From: Methanosarcinaceae archaeon
GTDB lineage: Archaea > Halobacteriota > Methanosarcinia > Methanosarcinales > Methanosarcinaceae
DNA length: 44,994 bases
NCBI GenBank assembly: GCA_023544565.1
Contig: JAMJFS010000014.1
Span: 1 to 44,994, forward strand
Direction: 5' to 3'
Part shown: positions 39,336 to 44,994 of the stretch, in pieces
Position numbering within the stretch: position 1 is the stretch's first letter
Layout of the letters: every line of letters begins with the position of its first letter
Program-made: the position numbers and the translations under genes
Notes under the pieces: generated by a model
What the model was told of the DNA's origin: nothing
The model's input: the letters and a program-made list of their open reading frames with translations, nothing else
Database searches by the model: none

Positions 39336-39669
39336 TGGGCGTTTATCTGCGGTTAATGTTAATTAGCCTGCATCAGGCTCATCAAAGAGAAAAGTAATTT
39401 GGATATGTCCAATAATGTAGATTCCGGCTCTGATCAAAACTTCAGTACGTTGAATTTAAAAATGTAGTGCCCTGCCCAGTTCCAAAATGAAGCAGGAAGC
39501 CTTTTTCTCACTGCATAGCGACAGGGAGGGGGTAGTTCACTAAAAATGTAAGATTATCCGGATAAAGAAACTTGATATATCCTTAAACCAATGTTAACTC
39601 TGACAAACACAAATCTTCAATATACACATCCAATCGAAATATTTTGAGTCTGGAACAAGAACACATCAC
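39336..39669 (+). other. Gene-free interval with two repeat segments
   Basis: No gene is seen. It holds the truncated dispersed repeat copy at 39432-39489 and, directly after it, a segment 39501-39531 containing CTCACTGCATAGCGACAGGG that resembles 41351-41380 near dinB. Confidence 0.5.
39432..39489 (+). repeat. Dispersed repeat family R, copy 1 (5' part only)
   Basis: Contains GATCAAAACTTCAGTACGTT, then GAATTTAAAAATGT and GCCCTGCCCAGT. Matches the first ~58 bases of the longer copies at 41742 and 44680. Same orientation as all other copies. Confidence 0.8.
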
Positions 39670-41533: not shown

Positions 41534-41745
41534 TCAACACTGAAGATCATCCATCAATCTTGCCCCATGGGTTATGGCTGCAATCTCAACAACATCTGAT
41601 TTGATCCGATACACAATCCTGTAATTTTAAAAAATAATCTCACGTATATGATGCAAATTGTATTCCGGCACTACTCTGCCAGATCTCGAAAATAGTGTTA
41701 GGTTCTCGATGGCACGGATCACATTTTTTGCGAAAGCGCTATGAT
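41534..41745 (-). pseudogene. RelE/ParE-type toxin relic with in-frame stop
   Basis: Read on the minus strand, the frame gives 'FSRSGRVVPEYNLHHIREII', 'F-stop-NYRIVYRIKSDVVEIAAI' and 'THGARLMDD', an obvious ParE/RelE toxin of the 'SGRVVPE...IREII.GNYRIVYRI' type. A TAA at 41627-41629 sits in place of a glycine or similar residue, and the N-terminal third is missing, where the sequence runs into dispersed repeat copy 2. No antitoxin remains. Confidence 0.75.
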
Positions 41746-41836
41746 CAAAGCTTCAGTACGTTGAATTAAAAATGTGACGCCCTGCCCACTTCAATATCCC
41801 AAAACAGCGCATGATAAGTTTTACAATAGGCGCGGT
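41742..41836 (+). repeat. Dispersed repeat family R, copy 2
   Basis: Contains TGATCAAAGCTTCAGTACG, GCCCTGCCCACTT, CCCAAAACAGCGCATGATAA and GTTTTA followed by AGGCGCGG. It abuts the broken 5' end of the ParE relic. Confidence 0.85.
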
Positions 41837-41953
41837 TAAATGACAATCAAACTCACACATCAATGAATATTGGTATCAAAAATTTGTAAGTTACTTTTTA
41901 AACAGGTAACTTACAAATTAATAATTTTTTAAACTGCTACCGAAGTATAGTAA

Positions 41954-42067
41954 TCACTTTTTTCCCTTGGCCACTTCTAACTTCTTACCGCACTGGTCAC
42001 ACTTTCCTTCATCTGTAACACCTGGCTTTTTTGGTGCTTCTTCCCCACAAATACTGCATTTTACCAT
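41954..42067 (-). CDS. 37-residue zinc-ribbon protein
   Basis: A small gene with an excellent ribosome binding site, GGAGGTGA (42073-42080 on the plus-strand numbering), five bases before the ATG at 42067. The product begins 'MVKCSICGEEAPKKPGVTDE' and continues 'GKCDQCGKKLEVAKGKK'. The two CxxC pairs (C4/C7 and C23/C26) define a rubredoxin-like or ribosomal-type zinc ribbon of minimal size. Similar tiny ribbons are abundant in methanogen genomes and are often unannotated. Partner and role unknown. Confidence 0.8.
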   Translation of the reverse strand: MVKCSICGEEAPKKPGVTDEGKCDQCGKKLEVAKGKK

Positions 42068-42588
42068 CGACTTCACCTCCCTATTCACATTTATCAGAGT
42101 ATAGTCCCCAATTTTGTTCCTATCATTTTGGAACTATAAATATCCTTTAAACATTGACTGGATCATTGTTAAAATCATGTGAAACTAAGATTCTTATTTT
42201 AACTTCTAACGATTAAGCTGATCGGATGGTTCTATCATGAGGAGGTGAATGAAGGGAATACATTTGGCAAGCAGATCAAAACTCTCTGTAAAAAGTGTCA
42301 TGTAAAGATAACAGCAGAAACCTAGACTGGAGTGAAAATTTCACCTACGGACACAAAATAAAAATGTTCAAAATCTCAAAACAGCGCATGATAAGTTTTA
42401 GAAGGGGCGCGAGGGTGGGAGAGATGGAGGAAAGGGGCGCTGGGTTTTAAATATCGTGATGTAGGTTTCCGAGGGGGGGAATCTTCCCCTTCGTATTTTT
42501 TTAAAAAATATTGGTAGCATGGAAATGAACATACAAATTTTGTATCATATTATCCAATCATATAGTGAGAAAAAGTTCAAACTTGAGT
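42068..42588 (+). other. Gene-poor interval with a small CxxC remnant and repeat copy 3
   Basis: No intact gene is confirmed. A short open frame 42245-42325 (GTG start, 26 residues) ends 'QIKTLCKKCHVKITAET', with a CxxC pair that suggests the tail of another zinc-binding protein. Repeat copy 3 follows at 42371-42500. A T-rich stretch near 42497-42508 could terminate a transcript. Confidence 0.4.
42371..42500 (+). repeat. Dispersed repeat family R, copy 3 (left of the PIN-GNAT/ASCH unit)
   Basis: Contains CTCAAAACAGCGCATGATAA, GTTTTAGAAGGGGCGCGAGG and GGGCGCTGGGTTTTA. Compared with copy 4 it has lost about 14 bases of the GCCCTGCCCAG block. The tail, a TAGGTTTCC and then CTTCCCCTTCGTATTTTTTT stretch, also parallels the tail of copy 4. 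Confidence 0.85.
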
Positions 42589-43062
42589 TCAAATTGATTT
42601 GGACAGTGATTCCGAGGATTCAGCTAAAATCCCATGGGAATAATTTGTTTCAGTACTCTGGTAATTCCAATTCGGTTGTAGGAAATCCATTGGCACGTAA
42701 TAAAACGATTGAGGCGGTCGGAAACCTTCAATCATATCGTATGGGTCAATTGGAATGGAAAATTCGTGAACATCAGCAATCTTTATAGCATAACCAATGT
42801 CTGAATTTTTAAAGTAACTGAAAAAGTCACTTTCAGATATTCCGGCATATTCATGACATTGTTCCCATAAACTCTGAGGGCTAGCAGTAATGATGCCATC
42901 AATGTCAACAATTCCAATGATCTTCTTAACCGGGGAACTGGAATAAATATAGACTTTTTCGATATTTTCTCTTTTAAATATCAATTTTCTAAACTCGTAT
43001 TTTTTTCTTCCCGAGATAATTTCATTAGCATATTTCGGTTTAACTGACAGTAAAATGTTCAT
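42589..43062 (-). CDS. ASCH-domain (PUA-superfamily) protein
   Basis: The product is 157 residues. The ASCH signature is at the start: 'LLSVKPKYANEIISGRKKYE' followed by FRK, i.e. the G-x-K-x-x-E-x-R pattern, then 'VYIYSSSPVKKIIGIVDIDG'. ASCH domains are PUA-like folds, predicted to bind RNA or act as RNA-processing/N4-acetylcytidine amidohydrolase-type enzymes. 'FSYFKNSDIGYAIKI' is the usual second half. The ATG at 43062 has GGAGGG seven bases upstream and lies inside the end of the PIN-GNAT gene (23-base overlap), so the two are translationally linked. The C-terminal 30 residues are serine-rich and less conserved in appearance. Confidence 0.83.
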   Translation of the reverse strand: MNILLSVKPKYANEIISGRKKYEFRKLIFKRENIEKVYIYSSSPVKKIIGIVDIDGIITASPQSLWEQCHEYAGISESDFFSYFKNSDIGYAIKIADVHEFSIPIDPYDMIEGFRPPQSFYYVPMDFLQPNWNYQSTETNYSHGILAESSESLSKSI

Positions 43063-44530
43063 CCAGTTTCCCTCCTTTTTTTATCGTCATATATTGGTTA
43101 TGATCTAATTCTATAATAGATTGCGGAAAAGAAATGTCATGCTGACGGAGATAACTTAAATCTAATGGATTCGGAAGAAAGAGATGATGCCTGAACATAG
43201 TCACCAAAACTGGCTTTTGTGCCTTTTCTTTGATTTCATCGTAAAGATATACACTTCGTTTTCCAACAATCCTGACAACCTCATCTGCCTCTTTGGTATG
43301 TACAGGTTCCTGATCAACAACTCCAATAGATGTCACAGCTTTTTGATCATGGGATCGATAAAATACAAGAATATCCCCAGCCCGTATTTTTTTAATCGCA
43401 GAACCCGAAAGATAAGCCTTTCTAATCGCATTACCTGGGATATTGATTTCCGAATATTCAGTTATCTTCATCTGCCTTTGCCTAAAATCTGGGAAAAGCC
43501 TATCGTGGAATTCAGGCATAATAGGAACCAAGAATTTCTTAATATCTGGAGAATCCCTAAAGGATGGATAATATTTTTTAGATATTTCAAGTGGGGATAA
43601 CTTGTTTCCTGCATGTATGAGTTTTTTAATGAAAACTTCCTCATTATTCTTTCTCAAAAATCCTGCCGTTTCAAACCCATAGTTCTCAATGAGATTTATC
43701 AGCGCATCATCATCTTTTCGGAAATGGGTTAAATATGTCTCAAAAATCTGGTTGCGAATGCAGTATTGGAATGCCATTTTCAGAAACAGTTCACCTAATT
43801 TGAATCCAGATATATCAACCTTCAATGTAGCGATCTTTAGTCTCCTTACAGCCAGGATTGGAGGAGATATTTCAATTGGCTCATTCTCTTCTTTTAACAT
43901 TAATAATGCCTTAATCGCATTATCTTCGTGATAAACCCAGCATTTTCGACCTTCTATTGATTTTGCCTTGAACCATTTCCTAAAATCAGAATCACCATAA
44001 TCTTCTTTTAATGAATCGAAAAAAGGTTCATCAACATCAAGATTGCGAAGATAATCTTCTCTCAAAAGAGCATGTGTTGGCACATCTCTTGCATAGAGAT
44101 CTTCAAAATAACTAAGGGCTGAATCTATGGATAATACACGGTCTTCAAGATTTACTCGGTTTGCCTTCTTTTGAAGATCGATGTCTTCTGTGATTAAAAA
44201 ATCAGCAGCGTTTTTTTGAATTGCAAAAAGGATTTCATTATCATTGATTTCATTGCTAGTGGACAAAGTCCCCATCAGTGACAAAAAATCATCAGTGGGT
44301 TTAGGTGGCAACTCTATTAGTGGATAACCTTTTAATTTAGATAATATGACCGTTCTACGTTGAGCATTTTGATCATTTTTGATATCCTTCAATGACGCCG
44401 GATGAATGAAAATATGATGTCCATATCTACGGAATACATTAAGTAAACCTTGGAGATTTGAACTCAGTTCTTTTGGGTCTTCAATGTGAATAAGAATATT
44501 TGTATCCAATACAATTTTCATATTTTGCAT
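43040..44530 (-). CDS. PIN-GNAT-PUA/EVE-like three-domain fusion protein
   Basis: The product is 496 residues. Residues 4-135 are a PIN nuclease domain: 'IVLDTNILIHIED' (D9), 'EINDNEILFAI' (D97 and E99) and 'ADFLITEDIDLQKKA' (T114, D116), so the metal site looks complete. Residues about 180-305 resemble a GNAT acyltransferase: 'LKIATLKVDISGFKLGELFL' (motif A with a diverged P-loop) and 'LINLIENYGFETAGFLRKN'. Residues about 355-485 form a PUA/EVE-like domain: 'IKKIRAGDILVFYRSHDQKA' and 'SIGVVDQEPVHTKEADEVVR'. The combination predicts recognition, cutting or modification of RNA. It overlaps the ASCH gene. Starts at 44530 and 44521 are equally possible. No characterised homologue is known to me. 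Confidence 0.8.
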   Translation of the reverse strand: MQNMKIVLDTNILIHIEDPKELSSNLQGLLNVFRRYGHHIFIHPASLKDIKNDQNAQRRTVILSKLKGYPLIELPPKPTDDFLSLMGTLSTSNEINDNEILFAIQKNAADFLITEDIDLQKKANRVNLEDRVLSIDSALSYFEDLYARDVPTHALLREDYLRNLDVDEPFFDSLKEDYGDSDFRKWFKAKSIEGRKCWVYHEDNAIKALLMLKEENEPIEISPPILAVRRLKIATLKVDISGFKLGELFLKMAFQYCIRNQIFETYLTHFRKDDDALINLIENYGFETAGFLRKNNEEVFIKKLIHAGNKLSPLEISKKYYPSFRDSPDIKKFLVPIMPEFHDRLFPDFRQRQMKITEYSEINIPGNAIRKAYLSGSAIKKIRAGDILVFYRSHDQKAVTSIGVVDQEPVHTKEADEVVRIVGKRSVYLYDEIKEKAQKPVLVTMFRHHLFLPNPLDLSYLRQHDISFPQSIIELDHNQYMTIKKGGKLDEHFTVS

Positions 44531-44994
44531 CCATGTGAAAAAATCTTACGCTCTGATAGCATCATTGTTATTTACTGTATATATTCTTAAGGTAAGAGTC
44601 CGGTGAAAGTAATCTCATGCATACGCCCACATTTAAACCAAAGTTTACAATTTCGTGAACTTGGTCGGTAGCTTGTCTTATCAAATCTTCAGTACGTTGA
44701 ATTTAAAAATGTGGCGCCCTGCCCAGTCCAAAATCCCAAAACAGCGCATAATAAGTTTTAGAAGGGGCGCGAGGGTGGAAAAGATGGGGGTGAAGGGCGC
44801 TGGATTTGAGAGATAGGAGAGGAGGTTTTCGTGAGTTTCAATTCCTCCCTTCACACTTTTTTCAGGGTTTATATGTAACACTAAAAAACCAAACTCTCCT
44901 GATTAATTTAATTTTTGGAATAAATTAAATAAAATACTTAAATCTAAAAGTTAATCACATTAATATGAAACTTATCTTTTTATGTAAACTTGGC
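44531..44994 (+). other. Intergenic region with repeat copy 4 and a possible gene start at the edge
   Basis: No complete gene is visible. Repeat copy 4 occupies 44680-44870. After it the sequence is AT-rich, and an ATG at 44965 opens a frame ('MKLIFLCKLG') that continues past the window end; ten codons are too few to judge. Confidence 0.4.
44680..44870 (+). repeat. Dispersed repeat family R, copy 4 (right of the PIN-GNAT/ASCH unit)
   Basis: The most complete copy: ATCTTCAGTACGTTGAATTT, GGCGCCCTGCCCAGTCC, CCCAAAACAGCGCATAATAA, GTTTTAGAAGGGGCGCGAGG, AGGGCGCTGGATTTGA, and the tail AGGTTTTCG with CCTCCCTTCACACTTTTTTC. Same orientation as copy 3. Confidence 0.88.

Follow-up and report, generated by a model that had tools for sequence, protein, structure and literature searches.

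The gene pair and its surroundings

The 44,994-nucleotide stretch of Methanosarcinaceae contig JAMJFS010000014.1 that was analysed (the window) carries two overlapping genes at its right end. Both open reading frames are intact and lie on the minus strand, and they share 23 bases, as an earlier sequence-only reading had described (Table 1). For the larger gene, which encodes a PIN-GNAT-PUA/EVE fusion protein, a start at 44521 appears likelier than one at 44530 because most aligned homologues begin at the MKIVLDTN (MKI..) methionine.

Table 1. Positions of the gene pair, its predicted domains and the surrounding repeats in the window.
Feature	Position	Strand	Basis or remark
PIN-GNAT-PUA/EVE fusion (PDC-M11A)	43040..44530	-	496 aa ORF; PADLOC PDLC04422 E=6.2e-144
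PIN nuclease domain, residues ~4-146 (D9, D53, D97, D116)	44093..44521	-	AF2 domain model, Foldseek, conservation
GNAT-like acyltransferase domain, residues ~156-303, loop G242-x-K244-x-G246-E247-L248	43622..44065	-	AF2, Foldseek, conservation
PUA/EVE-like reader domain, residues ~321-493	43052..43570	-	Pfam EVE, homologues, Foldseek
ASCH protein (PDC-M11B)	42589..43062	-	157 aa; Pfam ASCH 7.7e-5; PADLOC PDLC04424 8.8e-51; ZmASCH 5gus E=5.8e-14
ASCH domain and variable tail	~42682-43062 (domain); 42589-42681 (tail)	-	within ASCH protein
Overlap of fusion gene and ASCH gene	43040..43062	-	23 bases; length kept across archaea and a bacterial phage homologue
Dispersed repeat copy upstream of pair	44676..44862	.	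contig ends at 44994, just beyond
Dispersed repeat copy directly downstream of pair	42366..42502	.	
Dispersed repeat copy further downstream	41740..41834	.	

The two proteins matched the PADLOC candidate system PDC-M11 (PDC-M11A and PDC-M11B) as a pair and over nearly their full lengths, with PDLC04422 aligning fusion residues 4-495 to model positions 1-500/501. No feature compared set them apart from this system. The locus almost certainly belongs to this family, which can be written (PIN)-GNAT-EVE–ASCH. NCBIfam offered no name for the fusion protein and matched the ASCH protein only to a ribosomal L22-fusion model.

Relative to the nearest relative, dN/dS was about 0.1 for the fusion gene and 0.1-0.2 for the ASCH gene (NG86; dS was near saturation), and the gene pair is under purifying selection. 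DNA similarity to relatives was confined almost exactly to the two genes and ended at their borders.

Of 46 aligned rows, which count one genome twice, 43 had an overlap of exactly 23 bases. The same length occurred in the Methanothermobacter prophage psiM100, on a Halalkaliarchaeum plasmid and in the GevT/GevA genes of an E. coli phage. The sequence-only reading had taken the overlap to imply fixed stoichiometry; its conservation points instead to translational coupling. Being nearly invariant, it also provides a handy signature for finding family members. Pairing with ASCH, which the same reading had put forward as a feature to look for in homologues and whose absence from most genomes would have told against it, was found at 45 of the 46 fetched loci; at the exception (L086) a contig end truncates the fusion gene.

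The genes neighbouring the pair in the window encode a Y-family DNA polymerase, a DnaJ-domain protein, a methyltransferase and a homocysteine biosynthesis enzyme. Neither an AAA_17 ATPase nor an HTH protein was seen adjoining the pair. A repeat family of about 60-190 bases is clustered around the two genes, with further copies at 39429-39488 and on another contig of the same genome (G000:C1:1457-1634). Two other small features were noted downstream of the pair, both on the minus strand. A ParE/RelE-type toxin gene remnant with an in-frame stop occupies 41577-41755 (Pfam ParE_toxin E=1.1e-10 with X at the stop), and a short open reading frame at about 41950-42070, read by eye, would encode a small cysteine-rich (zinc-ribbon-like) protein, MVKCSICGEEAPKKPG..

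Domain composition of the fusion protein

An AF2 model of the fusion protein, built from 13 sequences, showed three modules with a mean pLDDT of 81.4 and a pTM of 0.63. AlphaFold and Foldseek supported PIN, GNAT and PUA/EVE folds in the three modules, in agreement with the proposed three-domain architecture, against which a missing GNAT or PUA fold would have counted.

Pfam PIN_3 fell below its cut-off on the window protein (E=0.047); among 20 homologues, PIN_3 was matched in 13 and PIN_12 in three. A separate AF2 model of the PIN domain reached a pLDDT of 90.8, and its Foldseek matches included VapC toxins, Utp24 and PAE0151. The acidic residues proved to be intact, as the sequence-only reading had stated: D9, D97 and D116 were invariant and D53 was 91% conserved across 43 homologues. 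The fusion protein is thus predicted to have a PIN fold and carries the acidic active-site residues expected of a VapC-type PIN RNase.

Pfam did not match a GNAT domain in the window protein. The middle module of the AF2 model nevertheless adopts a GNAT fold when compared with the PDB by Foldseek, and the GNAT toxins TacT1 and AtaT2 were among the matches (TM about 0.5-0.6 by target). Its acetyl-CoA loop reads G-x-K-x-G-E-L, which is non-canonical yet strongly conserved in the family. The canonical motif of TacT/AtaT-type toxins, Q/R-x-x-G-x-G/A, is absent from this loop, and acyl transfer may therefore be altered or lost.

The Pfam EVE model gave a sub-threshold match to the window protein (E=0.0013) and was matched in 16 of 20 homologues. 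The top fold match of the C-terminal module was ZmASCH (Foldseek, TM 0.76-0.81 by target), and EVE-type proteins and Atu2648 were matched as well.

The ASCH protein

The smaller protein scored above the Pfam ASCH cut-off. Its signature, G18-x-K20-x-x-E23-x-R25, was invariant in seven aligned ASCH proteins, which bears out the earlier assignment made from this motif. The closest solved structure was that of ZmASCH from Zymomonas mobilis (PDB 5gus/5guq), reported to be a ribonuclease that acts on single-stranded RNA and does not cut DNA (PMC5615036). Because this relative is itself reported as a ribonuclease, the ASCH protein may not simply be an antitoxin.

The variable tail was considered as the stump of a former fusion to HsdS. 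This was not supported, as the tail is partly common to relatives that have a separate HsdS.

Distribution and association with type I restriction-modification genes

A sample of 394 genomes from the phylum contained 42 with PDC-M11A, and a set of 14 control genomes contained none. The distribution is patchy, and plasmid and prophage copies exist. An alignment-based search recovered nine loci on viral contigs, where a single-protein query had given none. PIN-less forms dominate the bacterial phage matches. Pairs with a PIN domain are present in the archaeal prophage psiM100 and on viral contigs as well.

The defence-type company that the sequence-only reading had suggested surveying was found in relatives, in the form of type I restriction-modification (R-M) genes. 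At 21 of the 46 loci the fetched flanks contained at least one hsd-like gene or fragment, in nearly every case in the same orientation. The clade closest to the window has the arrangement hsdR–fusion–ASCH–hsdS–hsdM (L077, L079 and L002, and L081 as far as its contig end). ASCH and HsdS form one protein in seven distinct genomes (L006, L072, L073, L074, L078, L080 and L082). At a Methanococcoides locus (L007; 81% in the best segment) the fusion gene is broken across two reading frames, and upstream of it hsdR is reduced to short pieces. As about half of the loci have no nearby hsd gene, R-M coupling cannot be required for function.

A further variant contains a second GNAT protein of about 420 aa, with an N-terminal GNAT and a C-terminal PUA-like domain that gave weak matches to M11A-EVE and M11B. 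It follows the ASCH or fusion gene at three loci (L002:5676-6935, L054:10853-12118 and L055:11127-12398) and is fused to ASCH at two (L076:7664-9361 and L085:3074-4774). The accessible part of Bell et al. 2020 (PMC7641849) contains no mention of it.

At several Methanosarcina-type loci a Schlafen/AlbA_2-type protein is encoded between hsdR and the fusion gene (L078:11005-12372, L072:10617-11960 and L006:5966-7621). The call is based on Pfam matches to SLFN_AlbA_2 and a RecG-like C-terminal domain for L078 and L005 (L005 and L072 are one contig), and on similarity only for L006.

The window copy as an orphan

Defence-type surroundings were seen in relatives; the flank in the window consists of housekeeping-type genes and repeats, with the contig ending upstream. 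No hsd or second-GNAT remnants were found in the window flanks by tblastn. In the host genome, an assembly estimated as 92.5% complete, there was no Methylase_S match indicating HsdS, and the N6_Mtase matches above the cut-off were limited to one frame-split stretch (C48:3321-4027). The window copy is an orphan without the R-M genes of its closest relatives, in a host assembly that is incomplete and on a contig that extends 464 bases upstream of the fusion ORF, to its end at 44994.

The closest homologue (L079, 79% identity) belongs to a genome (G065) that is related only at the level of phylum, and only one of six congeneric genomes has a copy, at 45%. On these grounds the pair appears to be mobile. 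The simplest reading is that the pair was acquired horizontally and that the R-M genes were either lost afterwards or absent from the start.

Proposed function and its alternatives

The pair has a toxin–antitoxin layout, with a candidate toxin and its partner encoded together in a compact operon. The candidate toxin and antitoxin roles are assigned because PIN-less phage homologues have been deposited as GevT toxin and GevA antitoxin. The effector chemistry is suggested by the conserved acidic residues of the PIN domain and by the likeness of the GNAT fold to TacT1 and AtaT2, and it is plausible that the pair targets RNA.

We see about an even chance that the pair is a toxin–antitoxin-like defence module that works through an RNA-attacking effector, silencing by ASCH and R-M-linked release. 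The fusion protein would be the effector. Its C-terminal PUA/EVE domain would recognise a nucleic acid, probably modified and most likely tRNA or rRNA, which the GNAT domain would acylate (or else a charged tRNA) and the PIN domain would cleave, so that translation would stop. The ASCH protein, presumably made by translational coupling through the overlap, would bind and silence the effector. In relatives the pair would operate from inside a type I R-M operon, often with ASCH fused to HsdS, and the effector would be set free when a virus disabled the R-M complex, in the manner of PrrC/EcoprrI. The window copy would persist as a stand-alone pair whose R-M genes have been lost or were never present. 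We infer in this scheme the toxicity of the fusion protein, its target, the order of the reactions, the antitoxin role of ASCH and the release by R-M failure.

The nesting within R-M operons and the ASCH–HsdS fusions suggest, by analogy with PrrC/EcoprrI, an RNA-attacking effector held silent by ASCH/HsdS. In a reading that we hold only tentatively, the pair would guard type I R-M much as PrrC does: ASCH, often physically part of HsdS, would silence the three-domain effector, and viral inhibition of restriction would free it. The further variant adds or fuses a second GNAT with its own PUA-like domain (L002, L054, L055, L076 and L085).

It is rather unlikely that the family instead restricts or marks modified invader DNA, with EVE and ASCH reading phage bases, GNAT acetylating them, and PIN or the linked R-M enzyme cutting. 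According to Bell et al. (PMC7641849), in other systems EVE domains serve as readers of modified DNA bases and ASCH occurs fused to HsdS and HTH domains, and base acetylation had been proposed in an earlier account credited to Iyer et al. 2013. The HsdS fusions that we observed in relatives would fit this reading. However, R-M enzymes are lacking near the window copy and at about half of the loci, the VapC and Utp24 matches of the PIN domain are RNases, and the nearest solved ASCH protein cuts single-stranded RNA and not DNA (PMC5615036).

A selfish addiction module, kept by post-segregational killing and having no antiviral role, would account for the patchy distribution, the plasmid and prophage copies and the toxin–antitoxin-like layout. 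We regard it as improbable, as the HsdS fusions and R-M operon nesting suggest coupling to restriction. Least probable is the counter-toxin role that Bell et al. 2020 (PMC7641849) proposed from the split between PIN-GNAT-EVE in host defence loci and GNAT-EVE in prophages, whereby the PIN-containing fusion would degrade RNAs acetylated by the PIN-less phage protein and so protect the host: our bacterial phage matches are indeed mostly PIN-less, but PIN-containing pairs also occur in psiM100 and on viral contigs, and the ASCH partner and the overlap are common to both kinds, which suggests that they are controlled in the same way.

Comparison with known systems

The sequence-only reading had presented the pair as an undescribed system. 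This did not hold, since the family is already listed as PDC-M11 in PADLOC, published by Bell et al. 2020 and deposited as GevT/GevA. Bell, Wolf & Koonin described (PIN)-GNAT-EVE and ASCH operons near type I R-M genes as predicted toxin–antitoxin or defence modules, mentioned an ASCH–HsdS fusion in Methanohalophilus, and credited Iyer et al. 2013 with an earlier account (PMC7641849). Proposals by earlier authors have included DNA-base acetylation and both RNA and modified-DNA readings. The domain order and the ASCH partner of the window pair agree with these operons, as do the R-M association and ASCH–HsdS fusions of its relatives; the window copy differs in having no R-M genes.

Our literature search returned no published experiment on PDC-M11 or on the PIN-containing form. 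A survey of archaeal immunity covers other PDCs, and neither GNAT nor ASCH appears in its main text (PMC12988326). The PADLOC candidates PDC-M63AB and PDC-S04 were inactive when tested elsewhere (PMC12409345), a reminder that such predictions can fail. With the orphan locus, a defence family that is widespread but unproven gains one more member.

The names GevT and GevA come from a GenBank record only, that of Escherichia phage PhiR47_2 (PV340567), where the PIN-less pair is annotated as 'GevT toxin' and 'GevA antitoxin'. Literature searches found no paper that introduces the two names and none on PDC-M11. As in the window pair, GNAT-EVE is followed by ASCH with the same overlap. GevA is 40% identical to the window ASCH protein, and the GNAT-EVE part of GevT is 32% identical to the fusion protein. 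GevT differs in having no PIN domain, and the pair resides in a bacterial prophage, adjoining cI. Near-identical copies were present in 275 of 5,426 E. coli genomes. In PhiR47_2 the two genes come directly after cI and before kil/gam/bet (L111:3980-5408), a place that roughly corresponds to that of rexAB in lambda. From this position, GevT/GevA may be expressed in lysogeny and act in superinfection exclusion.

ZmASCH, the closest solved relative of the ASCH protein, differs in that ribonuclease activity on single-stranded RNA has been reported for it. The anticodon nuclease PrrC is linked to the type I R-M system EcoprrI (PMC2610378), and PrrC and RloC resemble the pair in relatives, by analogy, as RNA-attacking effectors genetically linked to type I R-M. 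They consist of ABC-ATPase and nuclease domains, with no PIN, GNAT, EVE or ASCH, and are not homologous to the pair. The fusion protein, being PIN-GNAT-EVE, has neither the ABC-ATPase nor the anticodon-nuclease domain of PrrC, and only the genetic setting is comparable. The hsdR/hsdS nesting and the seven ASCH–HsdS fusions lead to a testable idea, namely that this family may serve as a backup to type I restriction, the role that PrrC has in E. coli, while being built from quite different proteins.
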